Origin: Beroe forskalii
Lineage: Eukaryota > Ctenophora > Nuda > Beroida > Beroidae
Length of the DNA stretch: 64,000 bases
Assembly: GCA_011033025.1 (NCBI GenBank)
Contig: WFMF01000580.1
Coordinates: forward strand, 1-64,000
Direction of reading: 5' to 3'
This document shows positions 903 to 63,068 of this stretch, one piece after another (the stretch's first letter is position 1; each line of letters starts with the position of its first letter). The translations under genes and the position numbers were made by a program. The notes beneath the pieces are model-generated. The model did no database searches. It was not told where the DNA came from and saw nothing but the letters and a program-made list of their open reading frames with translations.

Positions 903-963
903 TTCCTAAGCCCGCATAGGTGTGTGTACGCGCGAGCCACACAGGGATATACGTGTTTAGCAA
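903..963. mobile_element. 61-bp MITE (TTCCTAAGCCCG / GTGTTTAGCAA ends) with 9-bp target duplication
   Basis: The element begins TTCCTAAGCCCG and ends GTGTTTAGCAA, an imperfect inverted pair with consensus TTSCTAARCMCG. It has a CG-rich centre. The 9-bp sequence tactaatta flanks it on both sides (894-902 and 964-972). At least four other copies in this window also carry 9-bp duplications. Confidence 0.8.
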
Positions 964-5569: not shown

Positions 5570-6129
5570 CAGTCTCTCAGGGTCACTACCTCTGAAATTG
5601 AGATGGATCTACAATAGATTTGGTCAGACATGGGACACCCTGGGAAGTCCTAGCCCAGGTGATCCTTGTTGCCAGGGTGACTAAGGGTGGATGGGAATGT
5701 CCCCTGTACCTCCCAGGAAAGGCCTGTCTGCCTGTAGTGCACTGGTCTTCGCACCTAAGCTCCAGGACAGTGAATCTTGCCCAGTGTTCGGATTGCAGAG
5801 CAGCCTGGAGCATCCCTGGGAGTCACAGGACCTTCACTTGCTATTTCTTCGGTTATATTGCTAAACTTAGAATCTTGAAGTTGACATTTCGTGTGCGTTC
5901 TGTTCCAGCCAATGAAAGAAATCGAAGGGTTCAAGTTTAACTAGCCAGTGATGGTTAAGGAATTGTAATCCCTAAGCTACTTTATTTGCCTGAGACTTCG
6001 CTGCAATGGGCAGCTCATTGTATAACCCTCCTGCACAGTTTCCTGTATACTCGGCTGAGTGAGGTTGGTGACTGCTTTAGATTCCAGGGATTATTTTCTC
6101 ACTCTTAACACAGTGAAAATTGATGGGAA
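5570..6129. other. Unassigned spacer between two tandem arrays
   Basis: An open frame of 106 codons lies at 5620-5940 on the plus strand. It has no recognisable domain and no clear splice or start context. I see no other feature here. Confidence 0.3.
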
Positions 6130-24985: not shown

Positions 24986-25051
24986 TTGCTAAACACGTAT
25001 ATCCCTGTGTGGCTCGCGCGGCGCGTACACACACCTATGCGGGCTTAGGAA
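24986..25051. mobile_element. 66-bp MITE (TTGCTAAACACG / GGGCTTAGGAA ends) with 9-bp target duplication
   Basis: Same family as 903-963. It starts TTGCTAAACACGTATATCCC and ends GCGGGCTTAGGAA. The 9-bp sequence cgtcacttt flanks it (24977-24985 and 25052-25060). It is inserted inside another CG-rich short repeat of the GACGTC...GTAACATCC type, so insertions are nested here. Confidence 0.85.
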
Positions 25052-32700: not shown

Positions 32701-35700
32701 GCGCATCTAGCGCTTTAAATAGTTAAGGTCAGGATTAGGTCAGGATTTGCTAGTTTAGGTTTTGCTAGGGTCAGCGGTTAAAGGTTCAAATATATTTAAA
32801 GGATTAGCATCAGTAATGAGGTAATGGTATTTTTCTAGCTTCAAGGATCAAAGTGGAGATGCGCACGAATTTTACTTACTTATTTATTGATGATTTAATG
32901 AGGATCGGATAAAATCGGCACTGATATAATCAAGCACTGATATAATCTGCACTGAGAGAACTAGATGTCACGTGATATGTCTTGTGGTCTGCCATGAGTC
33001 ACGTGATATCACTTGACGTAACTGTACGTCACGAATGCATGTGGCCAATAAGGGCCAGTGAGGGGCCAGTGAGGGCCAAGGGCCAAGGGCCAATAAGGCC
33101 AGTGAGGCCATCTAGGCCAGTGAGAAGATCGTCGCAAAAATGGTAGTACAGGAACATGGATGAATTTAGCCCCAATAGCCCCCATTAGCCCCCATGGGGG
33201 CTACGTGAGGGGCTAATAAGGGGCCAGTGAGGGCTAATTTTAAGCATTTAGCCCCCGTAGGCGTTAAATAGCGTGGGGGCTATGGTGGGGGCTATAGCTC
33301 ACGGTGAGGGGCTATTTAGCCCCCATTAGCCCCCATTAGCCCCTCACTAGCCCCTCACTAGCCCCCTCACGTAGCCCACACGGGGGCTAAAATGAAGGTT
33401 AGCCCCTTATTAGCCCCCATTAGCCCCCACAGAAAAATTAGCCCCCATTAGCCCCCACGGATTTTAAGTTTGTGAATTTCCATGGGGGCTATTATGCCAT
33501 ATGAGGGCTATTGCTCCCATATGAGGGGCTATTGCGCCCATATGAGGGGCTAATTTGGCTGGTTTCTGGCAAAATCAGCTAGCCCCCACCAGTAGTAAAT
33601 TTTGTGCTAAAATGCAAATTTTCAAATCGTATTAAAATTGCAAGACCACTAGCCCCCACCGTTACAAATACCTAAATAGGTCCCTGCCCCTTACTAGCCC
33701 CCCTTATTAGCCCCCTTATTAGCCCCTCACTAGCCCACCCCTTATTAGGTAGCCCCTCACTAGCCCCTCACTAGCCCCTTATTAGCCCCTCACTAGCCCC
33801 TTTATTAGCCCCTCACTAGCCCTCAGCCCCTTATTAGCCCCTCACTAGCCCCCTCATTAGCCCCTTATTAGCCCCTCACTAGCCCCTTATTAGCCCCTCA
33901 TTAGCCCCTTATTAGCCCCCCTCAGCCCCTCACTAGCCCCTTATTAGCCCCTCTTTAGCCCCTTTATTAGCCCCCTCACTAGCCCCTTTATTAGCCCCTA
34001 GCCCACTAGCCCCTTTATTAGCCCCTCACTAGCCCTTATTAGCCCCTCACTAGCCCCTTTATTAGCCCCCTCACTAGCCCCTTATTAGCCCTCTCACTAG
34101 CCCCTTATTAGCCCCTCACTAGCCCCTTATTAGCCCCTTCACTAGCCCCTTATTAGCCCCTCACTAGCCCCTTATTAGCCCCTCACTAGCCCCTTATTAG
34201 CCCCTCACTAGCCCCTTTATTAGCCCTCACTAGCCCCTTATTAGCCCTCACTAGCCCCCTTATTAGCCCCTTCCTTTCATTAGCCCCTTATTAGCCCCTC
34301 ACTAGCCCCTCACTAGCCCCTTACTAGCCTTTATTAGCCCCTTATTAGCCCCTCACTAGCCCCTTATTAGCCCTCACTAGCCCCTTTATTAGCCCCTCAC
34401 TAGCCCCTTTATTAGCCCCTCTAGCCCCTTATTAGCCCCTCACTAGCCCCCTTATTAGCCCCTCACTAGCCCCTTATTAGCCCCTCATTAGCCCCTCACT
34501 AGCCCTTCATTAGCCCTTTTTATTAGCCTCACTAGCCCTTTATTAGCCCTCACTAGCCCCTTATTAGCCCCTCACTAGCCCCCTTATTAGCCCTCACTAG
34601 CCCCTTATTAGCCCCTCACTAGCCCCTCACTAGCCCCTTATTAGCCCCTCACTAGCCCCTTATTAGCCCTCACTAGCCCCTTTATTAGCCCTCACACTAG
34701 CCCCTTATTAGCCCCTCTCTAGCCCCTTATTAGCCCTCACTAGCCCCTTATTAGCCCCTCACTAGCCCCTTATTAGCCCCTCACTAGCCCCTTATTAGCC
34801 CCTCACTAGCCCCTTATTAGCCCCTCACTAGCCCCTCACTAGCCCCTTTATTAGCCCCTCCTACTTAGCCCCCCTCACTAGCCCCTTATTAGCCCCTCAC
34901 TAGCCCCTCATGCATTCAGATCATAGTGCAGTTACTACGTCACGTGATATGTCACGTGACATTTCACGTGGTAGACCACAAGAAATATCACGTGAACTCT
35001 AGTTCTCTCCAGTGCAGATTATATCCAGTGCTGATTATATCCAGTGCCGATTTTGTCCGATGCTCTGTTGAATCGTAAATAAATACTAATAAGTAAAATT
35101 CGAGCGCGGCTCTTCCACTTTGATCCTTGAAGCAGAAAAATACCATTACTGATAGTGATACTAATCCTTTATATTGTCAGACGCACGCCTCTTCCAGTTT
35201 AAATGCCCCTGGTCAAAGGTAAAGGGGGGTCAGCCCTAACCAGTGACCAGGGGCATCACAAACCCTCGGCACGAGCCTTCATTATATATCACAATGACGT
35301 CACTCTAGCGCTTCAGAGGTTAGGATTAGGGTCGGGATTTACAAATACAATGTTTTTGATGGATTTCTCCCATCCCTAGCGCGCAACACTCTGAAGTTTG
35401 GGTTGGACTTGGTCTCCCATATAAACGGGAGCCTTCATTGTCTATGACAATGACGTCACTCAGAAAAATATAATTACGCACACCTATCGCTTTAAGGACT
35501 AGGGTTAGGGTCAGGATTAGGGTCAGGATTTGTTAGGGTTAGTGTTAGGATTAAGGTTAGGGTTTTGGTTAGGGCTATGGTTAGATTTAGGATACATATT
35601 GCCCTAACCAGGACCCTGGTTTCGCGACGCCCCTCAACAAGAAAAACAAAAACGTTTAGATCTGTGACGTCACTCAGACATTTATATGGGAGACATACCG

Positions 35701-38700
35701 AAGTTTGGAGGGTCGCAAACGATGTGTGCATACGGCGGAGGGTAGGTAACATCCTACGGCAAAGTTTAGGGTAAGGATTAAGATTTGTGTTTTGCTTAGG
35801 GTCACAGTTAGGTTGAGGATACAAAACTTGACCTTTAGATCTGTGAGGTCACTCAGCCCTGTTTATATGCCTAGACATAACACCTGGTAAGGGGAAGCTA
35901 ACGCGTGCATACACCTTTCCTAAGCCCTTATACTTATAGGTACGCATATGCGTACAGGCGCCCGCGCCACGCTTCTCTGGGGGAAGCACGCCGCGTGCAA
36001 CGCACACAGGGATATACTGATACATGTTTAGCAAACGCAAACCTATACTATGAGTATGGAGGCTTTGCTTAGGAAGGGTTTGCATTCTGCATTAAGGTTA
36101 GGGTTTTGGTTAGAGCTATGGTTAGGTTTAGAAGCAATGCTAACGGTGTGAAGGGTGACTTCCTAATCCTTGCCTGGCGTTGCCAGGCCCCTCCGCGCAC
36201 TCGCGCGCACAGACTCAAAGAGTCTGTCAGACGTTGTCTGACCAATTTTTCCTTTGCTTTTGGCAGGCCGGCGGGGGCTTGCGTCTGACAATATAAAGGA
36301 TTAGTATCAGTGATGGTATTTTTCTGCTTCGGGGATCGGAGTGGAGGAGCCGCGCACGAATTTTGCTTATTAGTATTCATTAACGATTCTACAGAGCATC
36401 GGATAAAATCGGCACTGGATATAATCAGCACTGGATATAATCTGCACTGGAGAGAACTAGTGTTCACGTGATATTCTTGTGGTCTACCACGTGAAATGTC
36501 ACGTGACATATCACGTGACGTAACTGTATGATCTGTGAATGCATGAGGGCCAGTGAGGGGCCAGTGAGGGGCCAATGAGGGCCAATAAGGGGCCAATAAG
36601 GGGCCAGTGAGGGGCCAATAAGGGGCTAGTGAGGGGCCAATAAGGGCTAGTGAGGGCCAATAAGGGGCCAGTGAGGGGCCAGGCCAATAAGGGGGGGCCA
36701 ATAAGGGGCCAGCTAATAAGGGCCAGTGAGGGCCATAAGGGGCCAGTGAGGGGCCAATAGTGAGGCCAGTGAGGGGCCACAGGGGCCAGTGAGGGGGCCA
36801 GTGAGGCCAGTGAGGGGCCAGGGGCCAGTGAGGCCAATAAGGGCCAGTGAGGGGCCAATAAGGGCTAGTGAGGGCCAATAAGGGCCAGTGAGGGGCCAAT
36901 AAGGGGCTAGTGAGGGCCAATAAGGGCCAGTGAGGGGCCAATAAGGGGCTAGTGAGGGCCAATAAGGGGCCAGAGGGCCAATAAGGGCCAGTGAGGCCAG
37001 TGAGGGCCAATAAGGGGCTAGTGAGGGGCCAATAAGGGGCTAGTGAGGGGCCAATAAGGGGCTAGTGAGGGGCCAATAAGGGGCCAGTGAGGGCCAATAA
37101 GGGGCTAGTGAGGGCCAATAAGGGGCTAGTGAGGGGCTAATAAGGGGCCAGTGAGGGGCCCAATAATAAGGCCAGTGAGGGGGGCCAGAGGGCCAATAAG
37201 GGGCTAGTGAGGGCCAATAAGGGGCTAGTGAGGGGCCAATAAGGGGCTAGTGAGGGCCAATAATAGTGAGGGGCCAGTGAGGCTAAGGGCCAGTAAAAGG
37301 CCAGTGAGGGGGGGCTAGTGAGGGGCCAGTGAGGGGCCAGTGAGGGGCTAATAAGGGGCTAGTGAGGGGCTAATAAGGGGCTAGTGAGGGGCTAGTGAGG
37401 GGCTAGTGAGGGGCTAATAAGGGGCTAGTGAGGGGCTAATAAGGGGCTAATAAGGGGCTAATAAGGGGCTAGTGAGGGGCTAATAAGGGGCTAGTGAGGG
37501 GCTAATAAGGGCTAGTGAGGGGCTAATAAGGGGCTAGTGAGGGGCTAATAAGGGGCTAATAAGGGGCTAGTGAGGGGCTAGTGAGGGCTAATAAGGGGCT
37601 AGTGAGGGGCCAATAAGGGCCAGTAAGGGCCAGTGATAGTGAGGGGCTAGTGAGGGGCTAATAAGGGGCTAGTAAGGGGCTAATAAGGGGCTAGTGAGGG
37701 GCCAATAAGGGGCTAGTGAGGGGCTAATAAGGGGCTAGTGAGGGGCCAATAAGGGGCTAAAGGTAAGGGCAGGGACCTAGTTAGGTATTTTGTAACGGTG
37801 GGGGGCTAGTGGTCTTGCAATTTTTAATACGATTTGAAAATTTGCATTTTTAGCACAAAATTTACTACTGGTGGGGGGCTAGCTGATTTTGCCAGAAACC
37901 AGCCAAATTAGCCCCTCATATGGGCGCAATAGCCCCTCATATGGGGGAGCAATAGCCCTCATATGCAATAGCCCCATGGAAATTCACAAAACTTAAAACT
38001 GTGGGGGCTAATGGGGGCTAATTTTTCTGTGGGGGCTAATGGGGGCTAATAAGGGGCTAACCATCATTTTTAGCCCCCGTGGGGGCTACGTGAGGGGCTA
38101 GTGAGGGGCTATTGAGGGGCTAATGGGGGCTAAATAGCCCCTCACCGTGGGCGCTATAGCCCCCACCATAGCCCCCACGCTATTTTAGCGCCCACGGGGG
38201 CTAAATGCTTAAAATTAGCCCCCTCACTAGCCCCTTATTAGCCCTCACGTAGCCCCCCATGGGGGCTAATGGGGGCTATTAAGAAGAAGAAAAAGAACAT
38301 GCCATTCAGCGGGGCAATTCAACAGATTAGGCTCATTAGTTCATCAGATAAGGCTCATAATTCATACCGAGTACTGTGACAAATGTAATGTTAAGTACTT
38401 CACCTGTACTATGGGAATGTCACTGTATTTCACAGAGAGACTGGTAACGAAGCTATGCAGCTCGAGCCCTTCCTCAAAGAAGTTGTTTCGGATGCTGGTG
38501 TCTATGAGCTGAGGTAGTTCCAGGATTTCCAGCAGTTGGGGGTGCTTGGCTATGCTCATGTTTGCCTCCTTCCTCCTAAGACACCGTATTATGTCAGAAT
38601 GAGACAAGTTGATGTGGGAAATGGATACTATACTGGGGATCGAGATTTTGGGGGTTCGAGGATCTAGGTTTGGAACGTTTTTTCACAAATCTTCAAATTT

Positions 38701-40212
38701 TGCACCCCAAATTAAATAAACGAATAAGGGGTAATTCCTCTTTTTCATTTGAACAAAATAAAGATATTTACGGAACAAATCGGATAATTCAGTTCAAATA
38801 TCATAATTATAGATCCTCGTTCTCTTCCAATCTACCAAACGAGGGGTGAAAAGAGCACTTATTAAACTCACTGTTTGTTAGTATTAACAGCAAGTTTACT
38901 GCATTGCTGCAAGGATTCCAACAGCTCAGGAACAGTCTCTATCACGCTCCCCAGCCGTTCTTCCAGGGTTTCAAAGGAGTTCCTGAAAGTAGGTCAAATT
39001 TCTAAACCCTCTGCTACTTTTATTGTTTATCATAATTCTAGTTCAAAATAATACAAGGGATCACCAGACCTGCCAGATATGACTACCACGAAAACTCAGA
39101 AAATCTAGTTACCCAATGTCATTGGAGCATACTGATGTTGTCACAAAGGATTGATAGTGTTTGAAAGCAAGAGTTTTCTGTTCATCAAGGAGGCGCTTCT
39201 CTTCCTCTTCCCATTTTTCCTTTTCACGAACTGAAATCACGAAATGATAGCAATTAAGAAATGTGCAGTTTATAGTTGAATGATAAGTAGCAGGGTCCGG
39301 TAACTTCCAGTCACGGCTAAACATGGCCTGTCCTCAATTAATATCAGTGGATTGTAATCAGTGGATTATAATCTTGCCACCTTCTTGCAATGTGGTGTAC
39401 AGATTGCATGATGATTGACAGAGGGATTAATAAAAACGTGCAATTTATGCCAACTCTCGACAAGATTTATATTATAGAAAGTTGATGGGCAAATGGTAAA
39501 TTGAGATTCCATTCCATTTCACAGTTAAATCCAATTTGTGCCATCAGTTATCATTTAAGTCAGCTGAGGCTGGTATTGAGGTAATTGTAACTTGTTCCTC
39601 TCCCCCAAAGTGTCATTTGAACATATTTAACAGTCCAGCACATCCTAATGTGCTGCATTCATGCAAATTGTAGATCCCAATATCATATGCCTGTTATTGA
39701 GATAGACAGATCTGTCTTTGATATAACTATATAACTGTGACAGTTCAAACGGCAGTTTTGTGTGCGAAGCTTAAGTATGAGCAGTGTACACTGTACAGAT
39801 GTGTTATTTATATGTCTTAATCCCTTGCAAGCTTAAGCTGCACTGTACACAACAGTTCAAACTGTCACCCTTATTAGGCTGTTTTGTGCCCAATTTACTC
39901 ACCAAAATTTTCAGATGTAAGATTACAGATAACATTGTTGAAATAATCCTCAAAGCCCTCAAAGGTTAACCAGCTCTCTGAAATAAGAGAATGTCTCAAA
40001 ATAATAAACACAATTTGAAAAAATTTCATGCCATTTTAGCATTTTACAAGACAAATGAAAGGTTTTTGTTCGAGGAACAGTGTGTTATTAACCCATGAGG
40101 CGACACAATGTGTCATAAATGACCATAATTATTATGAAAGATTAAAATGAGGCTTGGACTTACCCTTAAAATAACTAGCAAAGAACTTCTGGTATCTTGA
40201 GTGAGAGGACAT
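26751..40212 (-). CDS. COG8: Conserved oligomeric Golgi complex subunit 8 (complete, 13 exons)
   Basis: COG8 belongs to lobe B of the COG tethering complex, which acts in retrograde transport within the Golgi. The minus-strand exons are 40164-40212, 39903-39977, 39113-39230, 38872-38982, 38404-38575, 30190-30336, 29849-29915, 29427-29557, 28884-28986, 28527-28667, 28244-28412, 27785-27919 and 26751-27633. All twelve junctions are GT/AG and keep phase, giving 766 residues against about 612 in human. Family signatures in order are KTLAFKHYQSFV, PQLLEILELPQLIDTSIRNN, NLFDIITQYRSVF (about residues 261-273), LAQAMYFGMSLGRVGTDFRG and AALQEPLMPFL. The extra length is an acidic C-terminal tail of about 240 residues in the last exon. 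The intron between exons 5 and 6 is about 8 kb long because of the satellite foldback. Copy B at 47513-50801 duplicates exons 1-8. Confidence 0.95.
27370..27495 (-). repeat. Short coding repeat in the COG8 tail (SHDEGANDVI type)
   Basis: The acidic tail of COG8 contains about four copies of a nine- to eleven-residue unit (NDVISHDDGA, NDVISNDEGA, NGVISHDEDGA, NDITSHDEGA). At DNA level the repeat contains tgatgacgtcatta, a palindromic CRE-like sequence that is probably incidental in coding DNA. Human COG8 has no such repeat that I know of. Confidence 0.8.
28076..28220. mobile_element. 145-bp MITE with CCGGGTGTCC ends in a COG8 intron
   Basis: The element starts CCGGGTGTCC and ends GGACACCCGG, and TA flanks each side (28074-28075 and 28221-28222). 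It lies only about 20 bp inside the intron from the exon 11 splice donor (GTGGGT at 28238-28243), but the donor is intact. The same terminal motif is found at 58712 and about 29993. Confidence 0.75.
31680..32600. other. Homopolymer-rich, probably unreliable consensus
   Basis: For over 900 bp the sequence is almost only homopolymer runs of C, T, A and G of 3-30 bases. It lacks the ordered TAGCCCC units found on either side. This looks like an unpolished or low-coverage consensus of the satellite, not biological sequence. Open frames here, rich in Pro/Phe or Gly/Lys, should be ignored. Confidence 0.8.
32640..33110. repeat. Degraded duplicate of the foldback centre
   Basis: This stretch follows the order of 35430-36590: part of the telomere-like MITE (gcctttcattatctatg, gcgctttaaa), then the segment running from aaaggattag through ggataaaatcggcactg to cacgtgatat, then ggccagtgagg repeats. 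It has more small differences than the other copies. It supports the view that the left third of the foldback is a second, poorer pass over the same sequence. Confidence 0.6.
35411..35699. mobile_element. MITE with telomere-like core (copy 3), interrupted
   Basis: It starts GGTCTCCCATATAAACGGG and ends TTTATATGGGAGACATACC, with the TTAGGG-type array at about 35500-35590. A CCCTAACCAGG-type piece (about 35600-35640) interrupts it near the right end. Further partial copies flank it at about 35262-35345, 35763-35876 and 36090-36135. All lie in the centre of the satellite foldback. Confidence 0.65.
39735..39867. mobile_element. Hairpin MITE in COG8 intron 2 (also in copy B at about 50322-50458)
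   Basis: The ends GTGACAGTTCAAAC and GTTCAAACTGTCAC are inverted repeats, and AGCTTAAG and CAGTGTACA motifs pair further in. It is present at the same place in both copies of the locus, so it predates their separation. Confidence 0.65.
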
Positions 40213-41230
40213 TCTATAAACTTTGAATAGTCATAAACCTCCAGACAGAATAGCATAGCTTCATCTTAATTTCGAGGTCCAATCCCTCCTGATTTTTTAT
40301 TCCCCTCTCCAAAAACCACCCCTTGAAATTTAAAAATCCAATATCCCCTTCTGAGTACCCTCCCCCTGAATAAGCAAGAGGGTGCCATCCTCTTGACCAT
40401 TCAGGTGGAGGGTACTCAAAAGGATGGTCAGATGCATAATCTCAAAATATTAAGAAAAATTTGAGCAACACTACAGTAATTGTACTATAAATGGGAGTGT
40501 GGCATAGGGTGGCATAGGCCACAGTGTGCATCTTATTGTGGATATGAATACTGAAAAGGGGTTTATGAATGAAAATTTTCCTGAAGAAATGGAATACCAG
40601 GTCATCTTTTAATGTGTGTCCTGATCCTGCTAATGAATGGAGATCTAATTGCATTTGTTTCAGAAAAGATACTAGATAGGTCTTTGTCCCTAAAATGTAA
40701 ACTTTATTGTTGCTAAACACATAAATCCCTGTTTGCGTTGCATTTCTGTCTTCTGTAGGGAAGCACTGCGCCCTACACACACCTATGCAGGCTTAGGAAA
40801 CTCGATTGTCTAATTCAGAACATTAAAAATGTTGATACTTAACTTATTAACCTCCTATTCATTAACCAGGACCCGACCAGAAATTTGTCAAGGAAAAGAA
40901 TGGTATCAATCAAGTGTTCGTTGTTCATTAGAAAAAGAAATTTAAAGAAACAGAGATTTTTTATCAGCATTATAATACAATTAAAATACAAAACAAAATA
41001 ATTCCTTTCCTTTTCCATAATTTTCCCAATTTTTACAATTAAAATTGACCCAATTGCCCCAGCCCACCAGGGCGCAGCGCAATACGCCGCGCACCCTGCA
41101 AATGAGACCCTCTGATAGAACCATATCATGATCAATAGTTTGTATGCTATGCTTTCAATTGCCCTGACCAGGACCCTGGCCCTGGTTTCGCGCACAGAGT
41201 GCGCGGCGCGGCGCAGAAAGCCGCGCGCTT
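40213..41230. other. COG8 upstream region (copy A)
   Basis: This segment matches 50802-51795 of copy B closely. It holds an old TTGCTAAACAC...GGCTTAGGAA MITE (about 40713-40798) present in both copies and the start of the CG-rich MITE cluster. The promoter of COG8 should be here; I recognise no core motif. The ACCATTCAGG / CTGAATGG pairing near 40395 is weak. Confidence 0.4.
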
Positions 41231-41234
41231 AGGA

Positions 41235-41345: not shown

Positions 41346-41383
41346 GCTTAGGAGGGCAAGCAGCATTGCTAAACAGGTATGTC

Positions 41384-41481
41384 TTCATAAGCCCGCATAG
41401 GTGTGTGTACGCGCCGCGCGCTTCCCTGGGGAAGCGCGCCGCGCGCGGCGCGAGCCACACAGGGATATACGTGTTTAGCAA
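41384..41481. mobile_element. 98-bp MITE, present only in copy A, 9-bp target duplication
   Basis: It starts TTCATAAGCCCGCATAGG and ends GTGTTTAGCAA. The 9-bp sequence aggtatgtc lies on both sides (41375-41383 and 41482-41490), and copy B has one aggtatgtc with nothing inserted (near 51835). The interior is CG-rich and folds on itself (gcgcttcccc / ggggaagcgc). Confidence 0.85.
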
Positions 41482-41568
41482 AGGTATGTCACGTATATCC
41501 CTGTTTGTTGCCCTAACCAGGACCCTGGTTAGTGGTTACGCGCACAAAATGCACGGCGCGGCAAGCGC

Positions 41569-41676
41569 TTCCTAAGCCCGCATAGGTGTGTGTACGCGCC
41601 GCGCGCTTCCCTACGCGCGCTTCCCTACGGGAGAAGCGCGCCGCGCGAGCCAAACAGGGATATACGTGTTTAGCAA
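41569..41676. mobile_element. 108-bp MITE, present only in copy A, 9-bp target duplication
   Basis: It starts TTCCTAAGCCCGCATAGG and ends GTGTTTAGCAA. The sequence ggcaagcgc flanks it (41560-41568 and 41677-41685). Copy B shows the empty site ggcaagtgc, one base different, near 51999. Its inner palindrome is longer than in the 61-bp copy. Confidence 0.85.
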
Positions 41677-42469
41677 GGCAAGCGCTAAAACGCCCCTGGT
41701 TAGGGGAACTCTGTTTGCGTTGCTTCCGTAGGTAAGCGTGCGGCACGTACACACAATACACATATATGCTCCATGCGGGCTTAAAGTATGGATTACAATA
41801 TTACACTTGCACTTCCTTAACTGTCACTGGCTTGTTTACACTTGAATCCTTTGATTCCTGTCATTGGCTGTTACAGCTGTTGGAATAGATTAATAGAAGT
41901 CCTTCAAAATAAAAAATGTTTTGTTTTGCCCTGTAGACTAATTTTCAATGAAGACAGTGAATTGAATATTTTAATTCCTAGTACCATGTCAAGGTACATA
42001 ATCAAAGGATTATCTTATCTTATCTTATTATTGATTAAGTGTTTTGAAGAATGATATGCACTGAATTGTGTTGTCCAATTGGCAAAGATTCTTTTATTTA
42101 TTTTTGAATTAAAGAGAAATCTTTCTTCAAGACATCAATCTGCAAGACTTTTCTTCAACTCCGTACTTGAACATTTACTTAATCACTTCACTTTTAGCGA
42201 CCAACCAAAGATCAATATTTGATCAATCGTGGTACAATGGTACATTTTTAAGCAGTTTTGGACATTATTTTGCGATATATAGAACAAATTCGTGCATACT
42301 TGTTTTAACTAATCATCCTAACTTGGATTAACTTTCATCACATCAGCATTCTTTTTTGTATCCTTCCCTCAACAGCTAAATTAAATCACTTTGTTTACTT
42401 AATCACTTTTTTACCTTTTGATACAATGCTTAATCATGAAATACTATTTATACCTATGACAAACAGCTT

Positions 42470-44910
42470 AATCTCGAAGCCCAATCCTTGATCCTTGGAC
42501 AGACTTCTTGATCCAGTTGCAGAGTGCACACCTTGATCCTCTGACAGTCAACAGACTCCTTGATTCAGCTGCACACTCGTAGATCCTGGGACAGATTCAA
42601 TGATCCTAGGACACACCTTGTTCCCAGAGGCGTGCCGTGGGGGTGTTGGGGTGTCCATGTACACCCCGTTAAAATTAAGAAAATCAAATTTATTTGAATT
42701 GAAAAGAAAACTTTCTTCAAGACATCAATCTGCAAGACTTTTCTCCAAGAGAAAAACACAAATTCAAGAGAAAAACACAAATTTGATTTACATTTCACTA
42801 CATTAGGTATATCCATAAAATATGTTTCTATATAGGTATGTTAAGATTCCTGAATATGTAAAAAAAATATATATGATTGGCCTAATATGATTGGTCTGAT
42901 CTCTAAAAATATGATTGGCCTAATCTCTTTTTGAGTTTATGACTTTATTAAAATCTGAACACATTTATGGGGGGGAAAGTGCATGCTCATCGTACTTGAA
43001 CTCCAACATGATCCCTTTAGGTAATGCGATGTAGAGAGCAGCAGGATCTAAATGAGTCACACCAAGATGAGCGGTGTGCAGGCATCTTCAGTCCAATACC
43101 TACCTCATTTTTCGGGGCGTTTTATTTTTATCATTTTCGTGATCGCGCGCGCGATCATTGCTCTAGCGTCTATCGCTGAATGCCCCGTTTAGTCAACGTT
43201 GCGCCGCGCATTTTGTCATTTATCTTACTGAATTCTCCTCCGCAAAACTAGCGCGCAATTGTTGCGCGCGGCAACATCGTAAAACTCTCATACACCCGTA
43301 CTACTGTAAAATTGCAATCTCCCTAGGCGTGCCGTGAAATCGGGGTGCCTACTGTATTTAATTGCGCGGGGTGCCCGTGACACCCCCGATTTTCAATTCC
43401 GCATTCAGTTTGCAGTACACGTACCATTTCCAACATTGTCTTTTAGATTTCGCGGTCACTTTTTACTCTTCTCAAATGTTTTGCGACTGATTTTTTCTTT
43501 CTTGTGACGGATTTCTAAGATTCAAGACGGAACAAATATAGTGACAAATAAGTTTTAATTAACATATTAATTATTGATTTTTACCGTTTTCTCGATCTAA
43601 TGATCCGACATTCCGATGTACCTGTGTTCTGATGTTCAAGTGTTCTTGATCTTATGATCCGATGTACCTGTGACCCAAGATGTAGTGCTCTAATGTTTCA
43701 GTGTTCTCGATCTAATGATCCGACGTACCTGTGTTCCATGATGTAATGATCCGATGTTCCAGTTTTCTCGATCTAATGATCCGATGTACCTGTGTCCCAT
43801 AATCTTTTGTTGTGACGTTCCAGTGTTCTCGATCCAGTGATCGGATGTAAATGTGTCCAATGATCTCGTGTAGAAGTGTTATACCTATGTCCTTGTATTC
43901 GCGATCTTATGATTTAACGTTCCTGTTTACGCTTTGAATAATGAATTTCGTACATCAACATGATATGAGCATTTAAAATTTTGCAAAAAAATACAACTTT
44001 TGAAACATAGTATAATTTGTAAAAAGAGACTTGTTTTAGGCACTTTTTGAGTGCTTCTTTCAGCTATTTTCCAGAGGTTTCGCCTGCGGCGCATAGCCTC
44101 CGGCGGGTGGGGGGCCCGCCCCCAAAACCCCCTGAGTCAGTCGGTACCGTACACCCCAAATATGCTCACTAGACCGTCCACGGCACGCCTCTGCTTGTTC
44201 CTGGGACATTCCTTGATCTTTGGACAGACACCTTGATCTTGAGCCCAATCCTTGATCATGAGGCATTATTTAAATGTTTTGTTAAATAATAGATAGTGAA
44301 TGAATAGGTAGTGAATGTCAAGTGTATGCTATGCCTATGTGAAGAGGCTTGATAGTGTAGGTTCATGTTTATACTATCACCAGATTCAATAATAATAATG
44401 ATCCTAGGACAGACACCTTGATCCTAAGACTGACTCCTTGAACCAGCTGCACACTCCTTGATCCTGGGAGAAACTCCCTGATCCTGACAGAATAGTAATA
44501 AACATTCTTCCTACATCCTGTCCTGATGTCCCTTGCTATCCTGTCATACCAGCTAGGGTAGAATGTGGTGAGATACCAACAAGACTCTTTGATCCTTGCA
44601 CATAAACCTTGGTCCTGGGACAGACCCGTTCATCTTGGAACACCTCAAACCTTGAACACATACCTTGATCTACCTTCACACTCCTTTATCATTACATGTC
44701 AGAATCCTTGATAACCCTGGGACTGAATTCTTCATCCTGTGGAACAATCTTTGATGCTGGAAAATACTCCTTGATCCTGGAAAATACAACTTAATCCTGG
44801 GACACACTCCTTGATCATAGGGGATGCTCCTTGATCCCAATGAACAATCAATGATCCTGAGGCACACTCCTTGATCATGGGAAATATCTCTAAATCATGG
44901 TAAATCTGAA
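42470..44910. repeat. CTTGATCCTGGGACA degenerate tandem repeat, copy A
   Basis: Units of about 20 bp of the form CTCCTTGATCCTGGGACACA, in several runs (42480-42615, 44195-44260, 44400-44490, 44575-44935) separated by unique sequence and by the hAT element. The equivalent runs in copy B are at 54170-54340, 54345-54390, 54540-54630 and 59810-60160. Short minus-strand frames here are repeat translations. Confidence 0.75.
42625..44193. mobile_element. Non-autonomous hAT element, 1569 bp, present only in copy A
   Basis: The ends are CAGAGGCGTGCCGTG and CACGGCACGCCTCTG, exact inverted repeats. The 8-bp sequence cttgttcc lies on both sides (42617-42624 and 44194-44201). Copy B has a single cttgttcc in the same context (near 54337), giving an empty site. 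Eight-bp duplication plus CAGAGG ends define the hAT superfamily. No transposase frame was found. An internal array (about 43600-43870) repeats a unit of about 30-60 bp with ctaatgatccgatgtacctgtg-type sequence. Confidence 0.9.
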
Positions 44911-44939
44911 ATACTCCTGGATCTTGGGGCACACTTTTT

Positions 44940-46375
44940 AGGAATTATATCTTGAGTTTATATCCCTAGATAACAGATCCCAACATTGCTTATAGTTTAT
45001 AACACATTGGATTTTTATCTTAAATCCAGATGCACACTCCTTGATCATTGGAAGGGGAACTATAATCTTATAATTGTTAATTAACAATGCCCCCATCACT
45101 AGAATCAGAGAATGTCATGGAATGATGTACCGAAGTTTTGTTGAAGAAGAAAAAGAGAGTCTACCTTAATGTCTAATGAGACTCTGACACTGTGATTTGA
45201 CCAAGAATACCCACACACTTCTGACAATCATCAGACTTGAATGCTACCATTGAATACCGTGACTATTTGAGTGTTATCATTATACACAGCTAAAATGACA
45301 TCAGTTGCTAAGAGTCTGTATGGAGTATTTCCTATCTAAACCAGCAGGTTAGTATCATCAACTTATATCAAGGAATTCTTAATGCTTAAGGGTTGGTGTA
45401 ACTTCCCCTGCGGTCAAGAACATCTATTATTTGGTGTGTTTTGGAAGTATACCTAAGTTGAAGGTATTTCAAACATTCATCATGAAGAAAATAAAAATAA
45501 TAGTCAAACAGGTAGGTAAAATTCTAGCATTTTTAAACATAATGAATGTAACACATATGTGTGCAGATTGCTCAATTGATGGATGCCTCGAGAAAGACAC
45601 ATGGATTTCCTCATCTCATGTCAACTTTCTATATAAATTCTGTTAAAAGCACACAATTTTGCACGTCTTTATCGAGGCATTAGTCAATCAAGTGATACGC
45701 AAATTGCACGCATATGTGTAGTATCTAATCTTACTTATTTTTCAATAATAGCAACATATTTTCAGGCTGTACAACCAATACAATTATGAACATGCTTAGA
45801 AAGAACCTTGGAGTTGAAAAGGTATACCATTCCTATTCATTCATACTCGCCACCATTGAGGTTTTCATTATTCGCTTTAATTCCTACATAAAAATGCTTC
45901 AATTAATAGAGAGGTACGTTAGAAATACAGTGTTCAGTGCCCCATTTGCTTGAGTACCTATGTAATTGAACAGAATTGTTACTATGTTGCCACAGTTGTG
46001 CAGTTTCCTTCGCCCATGCTAATTCATGTTGCTCGTATGGCTATAATGTACTATGTTTAACAAGTTTAGTGGCATTGAACTTCCGGCATCATCTAGCAAG
46101 GTAGGTAGGTAGGTCAAATGCGCTTCTGAAGAAGTCCTGTGCTGCTATCGGGTCGACATGCAAAAAGCGCCAAAAAGAAAGTACTGTACTGTTTAAAGCA
46201 TGTTTGGGTTATTTATTTAAAGGGTCAAGGTGAGAAATTTTTTGTATAGCTTATTTTGTGTATTCCAACTTGATGCTTAAAATAAATTTATTCCAAATTT
46301 TTTCCTCAACAACCCCCAACTATAACTATTTGGTATCGAATAATCTGGAGTGCTGGTATCTTTCAAAAAATTGAC
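44940..46375. other. Non-coding stretch duplicated at about 60165-61400
   Basis: The two copies match closely over their length. I see no gene: the 71-codon frame at 45431-45646 is not kept in copy B, which argues against coding. Confidence 0.5.
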
Positions 46376-47225
46376 GTTTTAAAAATAAAATGTCACTGTC
46401 CAATCTGCGTCTTTCCAGGGAAATTTAAAAAAGGGAAAAAAAAAGGACAAAGGGGCAAAACGGAAAATGGGTCCCTTTTGTTCAATCAAAAGCGGGCAAA
46501 ACGGACATGTCTGTCGTATCACTGACACCAGTCTGTCATCCGCAAGCTGCCCTATCACGCCCCCTCCTTCACTGACACCAGCGCCCTATCCTGACCCAGT
46601 CGTCATACTGACCCCATCTTCCATGTGACACCCGTCTGTCGATCCGACACCTTTTGCTTCGTGACACCAGCTGTTATCAACCCAAGTCTGTGATCCCAAC
46701 CCGTCTCCCATACGCACCGTCTCCTCCCTGACACCATCGCCCATCACGACTCCGTCTTTATTCACTGACAACTGTATCCGCACAGTCTGACTATCACGAC
46801 AACATCCGACACTGTGACAACAAATTGAACCATTCCGTCGAAACCCTTCCTGCCAATCTTTTAAATTTGGGATCGGTGTAACTCAAAACCAGTTTGATAT
46901 ACATTAAAGGCAGTTTGAAAATTTGATCGGTTATATTTAGATTTGAAACAATAAAATAAAATTTTTTGACGAAAAAAGGGTATCGGTTGGTTTTTGATAT
47001 GACAGCAACACAGATCATTAGGTTTTTTGGTATTTTTTAAAAAAGGGGCTGGCACTATCCAATCTCTGGTGATTGGGGTAATTTAGGCAATCCGCAATGT
47101 GACGCCTAATTTTCTCTGGAAAAACCAAAATTTAAAATAAATAAAGTTTGAATAAAATAAAAATATTTAAAAAAAAAATCTGTTAAAAGGGCCCCCTTTT
47201 TTTTCTTTTCCAAAATTTCCATATG
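46376..47225. other. Low-quality end of copy A, next to the A/B junction
   Basis: The order of blocks follows 61400-62650 of copy B (cggacatgtctgtcg, gacaccagtctgt repeats, aaccattccgtcgaa, tttgatatacatta, gcaatccgcaatgtgac). Bases are missing throughout, repeat units are lost and homopolymers are stretched. At about 47226 the sequence switches abruptly to the match of 29139. The pattern suggests a poor consensus at an artificial join. Confidence 0.65.
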
Positions 47226-47512
47226 GTAATTTGATGCAATCAATAATTTAATGCAATTGTGCATATTTGATGCTTATGGCCATGCCCGCACGGTCATCAT
47301 TTCGTTGATTGTCAATTTCGTTTAATCATTAAATGTCATGCACGCGAAGTGATTCTACATTTGAGACAATGCGCGGCTCGGGCAAAGTCACTGTCAATTC
47401 TGCGTGCGCCGAACAATTTTTCCCACTCCAAAATCACTTTTTAGAGTAATGGGGGCAATTGGGACGCTGCTCAATGCCCATTCTCCCCTAACATAAATTA
47501 GCAAACAATAAC

Positions 47513-50500
47513 CTGTTGATGTAGCCAAGAGTTGAATATAAGTCCTGTTGACTTGTCCTCAATGAACACTGATCTGTACTGCGTAATTATGTCGAAAAGG
47601 TTGACTCTGTAGCTGTCTATCATCTTGCACATATAGTACTGAACTGTCGGTAATTTTAAATTTTACAGCACTACTTTATGACATCAAATTTGAGATTATG
47701 AACTAGGCATGACAAGTTATAAAAGTGCTGATGATTTAAGAAATTAATTAACTAATTTGTTATTAAAACTTTGCTTCTCACTGCCCAAGAGCTGTTTATT
47801 ATTCATTGAACTGTCGGTAGGGAATAATCTAAAGAAATCCCAGGGCAGTCAGTGTTGGAAAAGTCTCATGGGGCGCACAGGGCTTAGTTTAGAGTTTATT
47901 TGGTAAAAAAAGAATGGTTTATCAGATAAACTTACTTTCTCCCTTGTTGATACTGTCAATAACCCCTCTGAACCATTCAGTTCTTACTTGCAGGAATTTT
48001 ACCTGGGGAAAACCTTATATTAACCATTGCAACCTATTCTCTTCTATTGTCAAAATGTATGTATGTACATTATACCGGGTTTAACAAAAAAGGTATTTCT
48101 TAAGCTACGCACTTCAAATTCTTCAAAAAACTTACAACCCATACCTCCGACATCCCAAAATTTCATCTAGAGACTAAAAAACAAGCCAAATAACCGAGCT
48201 TTACCTTTTCATCTTTTTTGGTCCTTCCGGTACACATGAAAACATGAACTTTTAACGGCTTACTTTAAGTTGTGCATCAGAGTCTGAGCCAATTCGTCGC
48301 AGGAGTCCCACGCTCTTGAGGCACTGTGCCAGAGTTATCTGTCCTTGAAGCTGCTTCATCAGTATCTCCTCCATGTTGCGGATACAAGCGTCAGAATCTT
48401 CTTTTATCATCTGAATTATATCGTTAACATAAAATACTAAATACTATCTCATTTTGAAAGCCGTGCACGGAACGCCCGACCCGTTGGAGAGGGTCACAAA
48501 GAGTGGTGTCATAATACTCCATGGATAAGGACCGATTGGGCAGCTACGCGACCCGGGTTTTTTTAAGGTAGTGAGGTGTGGCTGATGGGCTCTAGATAGT
48601 TAGTTATCTGGGTTTGTGTTGAGAGTCACAGTTTCCATTAAGCAAACTTTAACACAGTATTTCAGTCTGAAAGGAGCCTCCAAACTTGAGTTTCTTGTTA
48701 AGCGATGGCGACGATCATCTAGGCTCCTAGAAGATCGTCACAGGATATCATATTTTCATATTGGTAGTATTAATATTGTATATCTCAGGGAGCCTTGGGC
48801 TCAGCTAGCGGAGGTTGGTCCTAACGGCACGGTTAGTAGGGCTTCCACCGAATAATAGCGTTCCATCCTAATAGAAGAAGAAAAAGAAACATGCCGTTCA
48901 GCGAGGAAACTAACCAGAATAGGCTCATTAATTCATCAGATAAGGCTTATAAGTAATACCGAGTACTGTGACAAATGTTTTGTAAAGCACGTCACCTGGA
49001 CTATGGGAATGTCACTGTATTTCACAGAGAGACTGGTAACGAAGCTATGCAGCTCGAGCCCTTCCTCAAAGAAGTTGTTTCGGATGCTGGTGTCTATGAG
49101 CTGAGGTAGTTCCAGGATTTCCAGCAGTTGGGGGTGCTTGGCTATGCTCATGTTTGCCTCCTTCCTCCTGAGACGATGCATTGTCAGAACCAGACATGTG
49201 GGACAATGATATATACTGGGGATCGAGATTTTGGGGTTTCGAGAATCTAGGTATGGAACGTTTTTTCACAAATCTTCAAATTTCGCACCCCAAATTAAAT
49301 AAACGAATAAGGTGTTATTCCTCTTTATCATTTGAACAAAATAAAGATATTTTGGGAACAAATCGGATAATTCAGTTCACAAATTATAATTCTAGATCCT
49401 CGTTTTCTTCCAATCTACCAAACGAGGGGTGTGCGAAAAGAGCCTTTATTTAACTCACTGTTTGTTAGTATTAACAGCAAGTTTACTGCATTGCTGCAAG
49501 GATTCCAACAGCTCAGGAACAGTCTCTATCACACTCCCCAGCCGTTCTTCCAGGGTTTCAAAGGAGTTCCTGAAAGTAGGTCGAATTTCTAAACCCTCTG
49601 CTACTTTTATTGTTTATCATAATTCTAGTTCAAAATAATACAAGGGATCACCAGACCTGCCAGATATGACTACCACGAAAACTCAGAAAATCTAGTTACC
49701 CAATGTCATTGGAGCATACTGATGTTGTCACAAAGGATTGATAGTGTTTGAAAGCAAGAGTTTTCTGTTCATCAAGGAGGCGCTTCTCTTCCTCTTCCCA
49801 TTTTTCCTTTTCACGAACTGAAATCACGAAATGATAGCAATTAAGAAATGTGCAGTTTATAGTTGAATGATAAGTAGCAGGGTCCGGTAACTTCCAGTCA
49901 CCGCTAAACATGGCCTGTCCTCAATTAATATCAGTGGATTGTAATCAGTGGATTATAATCTTGCCACCCTCTTGCAATGTGGTGTGCAGATTGCATGATT
50001 GACAGAGGGATTAATAAAAACGTGCAATTTATGCCAACTCTCGACAAGATTTATATTATAGAAAGTTGATGGGCAAATGGTAAATTGAAATTCCATTCCA
50101 TTTCACAGTTAAATCCAATTTGTGCCATTAGTTATCATTTAAGTCAGCTGAGGCTGGTATTGAGGTAATTGTAACTTGTTCCTCTCCCCCAAACTGTCAT
50201 TTGAACATATTTAACAGTCCAGCGCATCCTAATGTGCTGCATTCATGCAAATTGTAGATCCCAATATCATATGCCTATTATTGAGATAGACAGATCTGTC
50301 TTTAATATAATTATATAACTGTGACAGTTCAAACGGCAGTTTTGTGTGCGAAGCTTAAGTATGTGCAGTGTACACTGTACAGATGTGTTATTTATATGTC
50401 TTTATCCCGTGCAAGCTTAAGCTGCACTGTACACAAATCTGCAGTTCAAACTGTCACCCTTATTAGGCTGTTTTGTGCCCAATTTACTCACCAAAATTTT

Positions 50501-50801
50501 CAGATGTAAGATTACAGATAACATTGTTGAAATAATCCTCAAAGCCCTCAAAGGTTAACCAGCTCTCTGAAATAAGAGAATGTCTCAAAATAATAAACAC
50601 AATTTGAAAAAATTTCATGCCATTTTAGCATTTTACAAGACAAATGAAAGGTTTTTGTTCGAGGAACAGTGTGTTATTAACCCATGAGGCAACACAATGT
50701 GTCATAAATGACCATAATTATTATGAAAGATTAAAATGAGGCTTAGACTTACCCTTAAAATAACTAGCAAAGAACTTCTGGTATCTTGAGTGAGAGGACA
50801 T
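47513..50801 (-). CDS. COG8: Partial second copy of COG8 (exons 1-8 only)
   Basis: The exons at 50753-50801, 50492-50566, 49700-49817, 49459-49569, 48996-49167, 48264-48410, 47936-48002 and 47513-47643 match exons 1-8 of the complete gene in length, phase and splice sites. I saw no stop or frameshift. The copy codes the first 290 residues, up to NSWLHQQ, and ends because the duplicated segment begins inside intron 8. As a true duplicate it would lie upstream of the full gene on the same strand; its exon 8 donor (phase 0) could in principle join exon 9 of copy A. The alternative is an assembled second allele. Introns match as well as exons, so separation is recent. Confidence 0.85.
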
Positions 50802-51860
50802 TCTATAAACTTTGAATAGTCATAAACCTCCATACAGAATAGCATAGTTTCATCTTAATTTCGAGGTCCAATCCCTCCTGATTTTTTCTATTCCCCTCTC
50901 CAAAAACCACCCCTTGAAATTTAAAAATCCAATATCCCCTTCTGAGTACCCTCCCCCTGAATAAGCAAGAGGGTGCCATCCTCTTGACCATTCAGGTGGA
51001 GGGTACTCAAAAGGATGGCCAGATGCATAATCTCAAAATATTAAGAAAAATTTGAGCATACTACAGTAATCGTACTATAAATGGGAGTGTGGCATAGGGT
51101 GACATAGGCCACAGTGTGCATCTTATTGTGGATATGAATACTGAAAAGGGGTTTATGAATGAAAATTTTCCTGAAGAAATGGAATACCAGGTCATCTTTT
51201 AATGTGTGTCCTGATCCTGCTAGTGAATGGAGATCTAATTGCATTTGTTTCAGAATAGATAGGTCTTTGTCCCTAAAATGTAAACTTTATTGTTGCTAAA
51301 CACATAAATCCCTGTTTGCCTTGCATTTCTGTCTTCTGTAGGGAAGCACTGTGCCCTACACACACCTATGCAGGCTTAGGAAACTCGATTGTCTAATTCA
51401 GAACATTAAAAATGTTGATACTTAACTTATTGGACTCCTATTCATTAACCAGGACCCGACCAGAAATTTGTCAAGGAAAAGAATGGTATCAATCAAGTGT
51501 TCGTTGTTCATTAGAAAAAGAAATTTAAAGAAACAGAGATTAATTTATCAGCATTATAATACAATTAAAATACAGAACAAAATAATTCCTTTCCTTTTCC
51601 ATAATTTTCCCAATTTTTACAATTAAAATTGACCCAATTGCCCCAGCCAACCAGGGCGCAGCGCAATACGCCGCGCACCCTGCAAATGAGACCCTCTGAT
51701 AGAACCATATCATGATCAATAGTTTGTATGCTATGCTTTCAATTGCCCTGACCAGAACCCTGGCCCTGGGTTCGCACACAGAGTGCGCGGCGCAGAAAGC
51801 CGCGCGCTTAGGAGGGCAAGCAGCATTGCTAAACAGGTATGTCACGTATATCCCTGTTTG
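50802..51860. other. Upstream region of the partial COG8 copy
   Basis: Matches 40213-41510 of copy A apart from the MITE insertions seen only in A. It holds the shared old MITE at about 51296-51380. No gene was recognised. Confidence 0.45.
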
Positions 51861-51872
51861 TTGCCCTAACCA

Positions 51873-51947
51873 TTGCTAAACACGTATATCCCTGTCTCAT
51901 GTCTGCGTTGCGCGGCGCGCGTACGCACACCTATGCGGGCTTAGGAA
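51873..51947. mobile_element. 75-bp MITE, present only in copy B, 9-bp target duplication
   Basis: It starts TTGCTAAACACGTATATCCC and ends GCGGGCTTAGGAA. The sequence ccctaacca lies on both sides (51864-51872 and 51948-51956), and copy A has the single empty site near 41512. The target is itself an older CCCTAACCAGG-type MITE, so this is a nested insertion. Confidence 0.9.
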
Positions 51948-52033
51948 CCCTAACCAGCTGACCCTGGTTAGTGGTTACGCGCACAGAATGCACGGCGCGG
52001 CAAGTGCTAAAACGCCCCTGGTTAGGGGAACCC

Positions 52034-52093
52034 TTCCCCTAACCAGGGGCGTCGCGCACTCCGTGCGCGTAACCAGGGTCCTGGTTAGGGCAA
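52034..52093. mobile_element. 60-bp CCCTAACCAGG-type MITE, present only in copy B, 9-bp target duplication
   Basis: It starts TTCCCCTAACCAGG and ends CCTGGTTAGGGCAA (13 of 14 terminal positions inverted-complementary). The sequence ggggaaccc flanks it (52025-52033 and 52094-52102). Copy A has one ggggaactc with no insert near 41704. This copy defines the family borders. Confidence 0.9.
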
Positions 52094-52247
52094 GGGGAAC
52101 CCTGTTTGCGTTGCTTCCGTAGGTAAGCGTGCGGCGCGTACACACATATATGCTCCATGCGGGCTTAAAGTATGGATTACAATATTACAACTATTACACT
52201 TGCACTTCCTTAACTGTCACTGGCTAGGGCTTGTTTACACTTGAATC

Positions 52248-52307
52248 TTCCCCTAACCAGGGGTGTCGCGCGGCGCGCGCGTAAAACTAGGGATCTGGTT
52301 AGAGCAA
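52248..52307. mobile_element. 60-bp CCCTAACCAGG-type MITE, second insertion in copy B
   Basis: It starts TTCCCCTAACCAGGGG and ends CTGGTTAGAGCAA. The sequence acttgaatc flanks it (52239-52247 and 52308-52316). Copy A has the uninterrupted site near 41839. Confidence 0.9.
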
Positions 52308-52473
52308 ACTTGAATCCTTTGATTCCTGTCATTGGCTGTTACAGTGTTACAGCTGTTGGAATAGATTAATAGAAGTCCTTCAAAATAAAAAATGTTTTGT
52401 ATTGCCCTGTAGACTAATTTTCAATGAAGACAGTGAATTGAATATTTTAATTCCTAGTACCATGTCAATCCAA

Positions 52474-61400: not shown

Positions 61401-61559
61401 GCAAACTATTGATCGCTTAAATAATAGGGGGTGTCTCTGTCCAATCTGTACGTCTTGTCCAGGAATATTAAAGAATTAAAAAAGGACACGGACAAATAGG
61501 TCAAAACGGACAAATCGGATTTGTCCGTTTTGTTCAATTTTCAAATTGCGGACAAAACG

Positions 61560-62170
61560 GACATGTCTGTCGTTTCACTGACACCAGTCTGTCGTATCAC
61601 TGACACCAGTCTGTCGTATCACTGACACCAGTCTGTCCTATCACTGACACCAGTCTGCCCTATCATTGACACCAGTCTGTTATATCACTGAGTACTGACA
61701 CCGGTCTATCATATCACTGACACCAGTCTGGCACGCTGACGTTGCGTATCACTGGACACTCACACCAGTCTGCCGTATCGCTGACACCAGTCAGTCGTAT
61801 CACTGACCCAAGTCTGTCGTATCACTGACACCAGTCTGTCCTATCACTGACACCAGTCTGTCGTATCACTGACACCAGTCTGTCCTATCACTGACACCAG
61901 TCTGTTATATCACTGACACCAGTCTGTCCTATCACTGACACCAGTCTGCCGTATCACTGACACCAGTCTGTCCTATCACTGACACCAGTCTGCCGTATCG
62001 CTGACACCAGTCAGTCGTATCACTGACCCCAGTCTGTCGTATCACTGACACCAGTCTGTCCTATCACTGACACCAGTCTGGCGTATCACTGACACCAGTC
62101 TGTTATATCACTGACACCAGTCTGTCGTATCACTGACACCAGTCTGACGTATCACTGACACCAGTCCGAC
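61560..62170. repeat. 22-bp minisatellite, about 27 units
   Basis: The unit TCACTGACACCAGTCTGTCGTA repeats head to tail with a few irregular units near 61690-61770. Read on the other strand it starts with the same CTGGTGTCAGTGA core as the 33-bp minisatellite at 6130-7645. Just before it, a small palindrome (AAAACGGACAAATC / GGATTTGTCCGTTTT) lies near 61505-61535. A degraded version occurs at 46500-46800. Confidence 0.9.
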
Positions 62171-63068
62171 ACTGTGACATAACAAGTTGAACCATTCCGT
62201 CGAATCACTTCCACCATGACCAATCTTACATTGCTGACGCCATCTGGTGTAACTCTGACACCAGTTTGATATACATTAGCCGACAGAAATTTGAATATTA
62301 GATCGAAAAGTTATATTTCTTAGATTTAGAAAACAATAAACATACAAATTTGTGTGACAGAAAAAGGATATCAGTCGTTAGTTTGTGATATGACAGCTTA
62401 AACACAGATCATTAGGTTTTGTGGTATTTTTCAAAAAGTGTGGCAACTGGCACTATCACAATCCTCGTAGGTAGATTTAGGCAATCCGCAATGTGACTGC
62501 TGCACTAATTTTCTCTGAGCCAAAAACAGCAAAACATTAATATAAATAATGTGGCAAAAACAATAAAAATAAAGTAGTGTGGAAGAGAACGAAAATCTGT
62601 GTTAAAGTGCCACGCTATATTCTTACTTTCATATATTTGCCATATATTTGCCATTATAGTGTGTCATTTGTGACAATGTGGCAATCATCGTTAACTTTAA
62701 TGAGTGGCCCTCTTCTGGAAAGCGCGAATAAGAAATTCAGCTGTCCACCTCGCATTCTGGCTGCGCGCAATTTAATTTTGTTAAATTGGGAACGCGCGCG
62801 CTTGCATGCCGGCATGCATGCATGTACGTATATGGGCCTGATGCGTACCGTACGATGTATGCATGCAGTGGACCCAATTGCCCATTTCTCCTTGCTACTG
62901 ATACCAGTAAACAGTTGATTGACACTGCTCTTAAAAACCATTTACTCCAATGTCTTATCTATAGAGGTGTATGGGTAAACTACAAACATAACAAAATACT
63001 GTACATACCAATTTTACTTGACACCACCTACTCAATAATGTTTACAGAACATAAATCAGTAATATTGA
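62171..63068. other. Spacer before the TRUB2-like exons
   Basis: The match with copy A fades out at about 62570-62650. A CG-rich alternating stretch (gcatgccggcatgcatgcatg) lies at 62803-62825. A piece at 62945-63005 repeats 52473-52535. The 5' exons of the TRUB2-like gene were expected around here but I could not identify them. Confidence 0.4.

Follow-up and report, generated by a model that had tools for sequence, protein, structure and literature searches.

Cut-and-paste transposition is marked by constant element ends, duplications of fixed length and empty sites, and Merlin elements make duplications of 8-9 bp. A MITE is usually classed by way of an autonomous partner that shares its ends. 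For MULEs, duplications of 8-11 bp are given (PMC6446971), and for MITEs a size range of about 50-800 bp (PMC6245586). Tm1, a MULE/Foldback element of root-knot nematodes, combines 9-bp duplications and MITE-like members with two different terminal motifs; features of its own are tandem repeats in the ends, MITE-like members averaging 431 bp and terminal letters other than those reported below (PMC3169594).

The window analyzed here is a stretch of 64,000 bp (C670:1-64000) from a ctenophore assembly of 216 Mb in 1,134 contigs. Innexins are encoded in this genome (13 matches) and a zf-C4 domain did not turn up in a search that has no positive control, which suggests a ctenophore host: ctenophore nuclear receptors are not known to contain zf-C4, and innexins are not known from sponges and placozoans. 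It harbors two MITE families, family A (TTCCTAAGCCCG...CGTGTTTAGCAA, with a variable and GC-rich middle) and family B (TTCCCCTAACCAGG...CCTGGTTAGGGCAA), the copies of which are clustered and nested and vary in their interiors. The ends of A and B agree in their first four bases and in an asymmetry, one end reading TTCC and the other TTGC, and then share, after 0 or 2 bases, the motif TAA.C. Like other MITEs, A and B are short and non-coding, have inverted ends and a duplication of constant length, reach high copy numbers and have left empty sites. Their terminal inverted repeats, taken from the end consensus, match in 13/14 bases in B, whereas that of A is weak with 9 of the first 12 bases. 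With Tm1 they have in common the 9-bp duplication and a different motif at each end (PMC3169594), whereas the element sequences of A and B contain no tandem repeats within the ends.

Insertions in the window and its duplicated blocks

Seven insertions in the window had been reported by the first-pass annotation to carry exact 9-bp duplications, and direct reading found the quoted 9-mer matching exactly at both flanks of all seven. Two of them stand apart from the other five, a 61-bp family A element on the forward strand at 903..963 (TTCC end left, TTGC right, duplication TACTAATTA at 894-902 and 964-972) and a 66-bp family A element on the reverse strand at 24986..25051 (duplication CGTCACTTT). 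In three cases (41569, 52034 and 24986) a 10- or 11-bp duplication with shifted boundaries can also be read owing to 1-2 bases of chance identity; constant ends TT..AA with a 9-bp duplication are the reading that suits all seven insertions. The TTSC start ascribed to both families is indeed common to them, except that the copy at 41384 begins with TTCA.

The remaining five insertions distinguish block copies A and B of one duplicated stretch, which are 96% identical over 38282-41234 versus 48873-51813 and share further pieces. For each of them the flanks of the element were joined by script and scored over 40 bases against the other block copy. Block copy A alone contains a 98-bp family A element at 41384..41481 (forward strand, duplication AGGTATGTC, empty site 40/40 in copy B), which interrupts one arm of an A-like element of greater age, and a 108-bp family A element at 41569..41676 (forward strand, duplication GGCAAGCGC, empty site 39/40). 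Restricted to block copy B are a 75-bp family A element at 51873..51947 (reverse strand, duplication CCCTAACCA) and two 60-bp family B elements on the forward strand at 52034..52093 (duplication GGGGAACCC, empty site 39/40) and 52248..52307 (duplication ACTTGAATC, empty site 40/40). The ungapped score at 51873 is low (23/40) because a 2-bp indel (CT) adjoins the target, and gapped alignment reveals one target copy in the other block. Flank joining and gapped alignment thus agree on the single empty site that had been proposed for each of the five differences, and such empty sites indicate mobility. Since the opposite block holds one target copy per site, the simplest reading is that the block was duplicated before the five insertions took place. 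Once these are removed, 320 of 325 aligned bases are identical between the block copies locally and a few other small indels remain. The sequence at 52034..52093 is present six times in the genome in identical form, itself counted, a hint that copying was fairly recent.

One older insertion is shared by both blocks. This family B element, at 41508..41708 (reverse strand), is flanked in block copy A by CCCTGTTTG/CTCTGTTTG with one mismatch and encloses the family A element at 41569; its counterpart in block copy B, at 51861..52099 (reverse strand), has the exact duplication CCCTGTTTG and is enlarged by two nested insertions. An older family A element of 90 bp at 40710..40799 (reverse strand) has flanks ACTTTATTG/ACTCGATTG that differ in 2/9 bases, and an A-like end lies at the matching place of block copy B, at 51371. 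It appears as if flanks decay with age.

Copy number, duplication length and end pairing

Exact A ends occur 7,039 times in the 216-Mb genome (3,540 + 3,499), about 90 times as often as a reversed-motif control (76; 46 + 30), and exact B ends 2,752 times (1,387 + 1,365) versus none for the control. Pairs of B ends spaced 48-78 bp were found at 274 places, C/G and other pair types counted together. The sizes of 100 listed A pairs from a 43-73-bp search peak at 66 bp (23 pairs) and 68 bp (38 pairs), with some of 43-54 bp, and set family A apart from the MITE range as given in the source (PMC6245586). Three of these pairs measure 43 bp, and one 43-bp copy that was read shows an exact 9-bp duplication. 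The first-pass annotation, which had placed 60 bp near the lower size limit of mobile elements, was right about the very small size. Simple copies, as read, are 43-108 bp long, GC-rich, non-coding and numerous. If the copies of 43-68 bp are themselves mobile, a transposable element could be very small indeed, and its transposase would need no more than two short unlike ends.

The length of the duplication was assessed in the window and loci L001-L068, i.e. 69 sequences or 276 kb with overlaps, picked by their A/B ends or MULE matches. Here an exact 9-bp repeat flanks 53 TTSC..GSAA pairs of 35-400 bp, 26 of which are distinct (including some that use alternative ends of a single nest), while repeats of 6, 7, 10, 11 and 12 bp are absent and those of 5 and 8 bp occur six times each. 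Consensus ends with at most two mismatches per end were then combined within each family at 34-450 bp. Pairs less than 40 bases from the edge of a locus, pairs from L089-L106 and recurrences of identical flanks were left out. What remained were 108 distinct pairs, 73 from family A and 35 from family B, of which 89 are asymmetric, with one TTCC and one TTGC end, and 19 symmetric (C/C or G/G); these denominators are end pairs, not elements, as one end may enter several pairs and the target GAGTCCTTG entered twice via two alternative right ends. An exact 9-bp repeat flanks 35/89 asymmetric pairs and one with at most two mismatches 44/89, whereas among the symmetric pairs neither an exact repeat nor one with fewer than five mismatches was seen (0/19 each). 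The flanks of the other 45/89 asymmetric pairs differ by at least three mismatches, which counts against the explanation preferred below; some of these pairs join ends of different nested elements, and others may stem from copies that are ancient or damaged.

Chance repeats were rejected as a source of the duplications, since sliding the left flank from -12 to +12 over the 89 asymmetric pairs placed 35 exact 9-mers at offset 0 but just a single one, at +9, among the 24 other offsets, in line with the excess at length 9. The possibility that the ends are internal parts of a larger element, raised as a caveat together with the initial proposal, was likewise discarded: the pairs that carry a duplication all break off at this TT and AA and so do not look like such parts. 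Among wider TTSC..GSAA pairs, 401-12,000 bp apart in the same 69 sequences (mostly 3-kb loci), the sole 9-bp repeat links the two duplicated blocks.

All 44 duplication-bearing pairs (at most two mismatches) in the sampled DNA consist of one TTCC and one TTGC end. Genome-wide, short A pairs (43-73 bp) comprise 498 of the C/G type (261 + 237), five C/C and one G/G, palindromic pair patterns being counted once per place. The first-pass annotation had written the third base as C or G; both do occur, not as free variation but one of each in the duplication-bearing pairs. The ratio 498 : 5 : 1 need not show that an enzyme refuses C/C or G/G pairs, because a single founder with unlike ends would give the same asymmetry throughout a family, so that the excess may be inherited. 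The pairing recurs, however, in two families of otherwise different sequence, and this recurrence argues for a possible functional rule. Small size together with the pairing of a C end with a G end is unusual for this kind of element.

The putative transposase and competing explanations

We consider it most likely, with a probability of roughly 0.6, that A and B are MITEs mobilized by the MULE superfamily, through a single transposase or a closely related pair. As non-autonomous cut-and-paste DNA transposons they would depend on a putative DDE transposase encoded elsewhere in the genome, which would bind the two non-equivalent ends, TTCC... and TTGC..., excise the element and insert it at a staggered cut of 9 bp, whereupon the host would repair the gaps and the 9-bp duplication would remain. 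Such a system may be active at present. One transposase for both families is plausible, and one or two closely related enzymes are favored because A and B share the TTCC/TTGC pairing, TAA.C and the length of the duplication. The families are new ones of a known kind, probably Mutator-related. Their 9-bp duplication falls within the MULE range as stated in the source (PMC6446971).

Transposase domain matches in the genome number 46 for MULE, 35 for the Merlin-type domain PF12762 and 18 for PF20700. PF20700 also matches a THAP-bearing protein, which is reminiscent of Kolobok. Sections of 3.2-3.8 kb, with about 1.5 kb on each side of the domain, were read for 30/46 MULE, 10/35 Merlin-type and 10/18 PF20700 loci. 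The element ends of many MULEs were not found within the stretch read, while several MULEs could be bounded through their 9-bp duplications; the two ends of such a MULE are unlike, in most cases GGT... and GAT.... One of these, in locus L009 (746-3163), has the ends GATTCCC/GGTAACC; L016 (689-3197), L017 (200-2569) and L032 (557-2598) resemble it in their 9-bp repeats and unlike ends, and the MULE domain is present in all four of these loci, i.e. in 4/4 delimited loci scanned. Further delimited MULEs with 9-bp repeats and unlike ends lie in L010 (969-2274), L036 (968-2514) and L038 (86-2708). This suggests that MULEs of this genome combine 9-bp duplications with unlike ends, as does Tm1, to which the full-length MULEs are nearer than A and B are (PMC3169594). 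The Mutator assignment of A and B and of their putative mover is likely. A and B as deletion derivatives of the delimited MULEs were rejected, as the terminal letters differ (GGT/GAT and similar versus TTCC/TTGC).

It is less likely, though possible, that the MITEs are moved by a transposase of another superfamily, Merlin-like or still undescribed. None of the MULEs delimited here has TTSC ends, 35 Merlin-type matches are present in the genome, and other short TT..AA families with 8-bp duplications indicate that several small-element systems coexist. Within the 50 loci of 3.2-3.8 kb, outside of which most of the genome lies, neither an exact end of A or B nor any TTSC..GSAA pair flanked by a 9-bp repeat turned up, and there was no autonomous partner with TTSC ends; this counts against a MULE mover, but the ten Merlin-type and ten PF20700 loci are equally devoid of such ends and pairs, and both the duplication length and the unlike ends are found in MULEs here. 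It is very improbable that A and B represent isolated ends left from a larger element, or repeats arising from recombination, gene conversion or replication slippage with flanks that match by chance. Variable interiors and clustered copies would suit such an origin, as would the short tandem duplications by which the block copies in the window also differ, but it is at odds with the 35 exact repeats at offset 0 versus one over the 24 other offsets, the empty sites at the five differences and the failure of all 19 symmetric pairs to come within fewer than five mismatches. That chimeric assembly or polishing artefacts underlie the block differences is scarcely credible. An odd, almost purely C/T stretch of the window, at about 31893-32586, may be an assembly fault, but many contigs carry elements with these ends, hundreds in all, and 9-bp repeats also flank the copies that were read elsewhere.

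A viral or bacterial spread was also rejected. The 18-base A end has no match in IMG/VR, and the B end has two viral and 16 bacterial single matches, no more than expected by chance from rough arithmetic. No published description of either family was found in titles and abstract openings among the matches listed.

Genomic setting, chromatin loops and target sites

For the ctenophore Mnemiopsis leidyi it is reported that DNA transposon insertions lie at >90% of looping promoters, that a GC-rich motif with two CpGs is present in >75% of loop anchors and that the ctenophore-specific loop proteins CTEP1 and CTEP2 bind this motif when it is unmethylated, at thousands of loop anchors (PMC12221973). 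In placozoans, Mutator transposons sit at promoter hubs (PMC12221973). A and B resemble the latter in that putative Mutator ends are spread through the genome of a non-bilaterian animal (PMC12221973). Intact copies of our CpG-rich micro-MITEs run to hundreds and partial ones to thousands, in a genome from an animal group for which chromatin loops have been linked to DNA transposons and to a GC-rich motif (PMC12221973). The ratio of observed to expected CpG is 1.48 in A, 0.97 in B and 0.61 in the window. Size, paired unlike ends and this possible setting, with its putative link to loop anchors, are what is notable about A and B.

By analogy one could go further and imagine that few mobile DNA units known from animals are smaller than A and B, that their transposase would need little more than a C end paired with a G end, an obligate pairing reminiscent of the 12/23 rule of V(D)J recombination, and that the units would scatter candidate CTEP1/2 sites and seed loops. 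We regard this combination as improbable. The loop-anchor part is weakened because anchors in introns and intergenic regions are reported to be more conserved between species than comparable sequence, and such conserved anchors would not be recent insertions (PMC12221973).

Single-strand folding compared with shuffled sequences gave z -6.7 for the B copy at 52034, z -3.0 for another B copy and values from 0.75 to -2.2 for five A copies, and strong folding is not general among copies. On contig C1, the 92 A/B ends fall into 31 clusters at a linkage of 2 kb, while random placement of 46 elements (2,000 runs) gave 44.4 clusters on average and never fewer than 40; 15/25 B ends on this contig have an A end no more than 2 kb away versus 1.1 expected. 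Copies are also nested inside other copies. By eye, the 34 distinct targets have no clear consensus. Their G+C content is 62%, compared with 50% in the flanks and 41% in the window, and the GC-rich targets may reflect either a target preference or survival in harmless places.

Mutator-like elements of the same genome

Among the loci read from the same genome (numbered with L and given in their own coordinates), several carry Mutator-like transposable elements (MULEs) whose two terminal motifs differ (GGT.../GAT...), whose ends contain repeats of a motif, and which are flanked by 9-bp duplications. These include L009 (746-3163), L016 (689-3197) and L017 (200-2569), in all three of which a MULE domain was found on scanning, as well as L036 (968-2514) and others. 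With their unlike ends, internal end repeats and 9-bp duplications, they strongly resemble Tm1, the Mutator/Foldback family of root-knot nematodes (PMC3169594).

Short families with 8-bp flanking repeats

A third short family, apart from the MITE families A and B, has ends of TTGTCAGACGTTGTCTGACC or similar and 8-bp flanking repeats, present at L055 (1057-1158 and 1945-2046), L127 (23-117), L064 (976-1055), L044 (1606-1710) and L049 (462-525). Two of these six noted copies are nested within an A and a B element. Flanking repeats are likewise 8 bp in a fourth short family, which ends in TTACTCCATGTTAC/TTACCACATGTTAC or similar and occurs at L124 (259-372) and L049 (806-876).

Other repeats and small differences in the window

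A perfect inverted repeat with 298-bp arms and a 154 bp spacer occupies positions 1096-1845, with TTAA close to either outer edge; as TTAA is self-complementary, its presence does not prove a target duplication. Tandem arrays are found at 5997-7452 (33-bp period) and 61488-62254 (22-bp period), and long arrays of ~11-bp units (TAGCCCCTTAT / GGGGCTAGTGA) lie in opposite orientation at 30700-38300, their arms separated by about 1-3 kb. Runs of C and T compose nearly all of 31893-32586, possibly an artefact of assembly or sequencing.

Short tandem duplications, perhaps footprints left by excision or perhaps the result of slippage, further distinguish copies A and B of the window's duplicated stretch: TGTTACAG is present twice at 52337-52352 versus once at 41869-41876, and a 9-bp tandem duplication lies near TATTACAAC at about 52183-52199.
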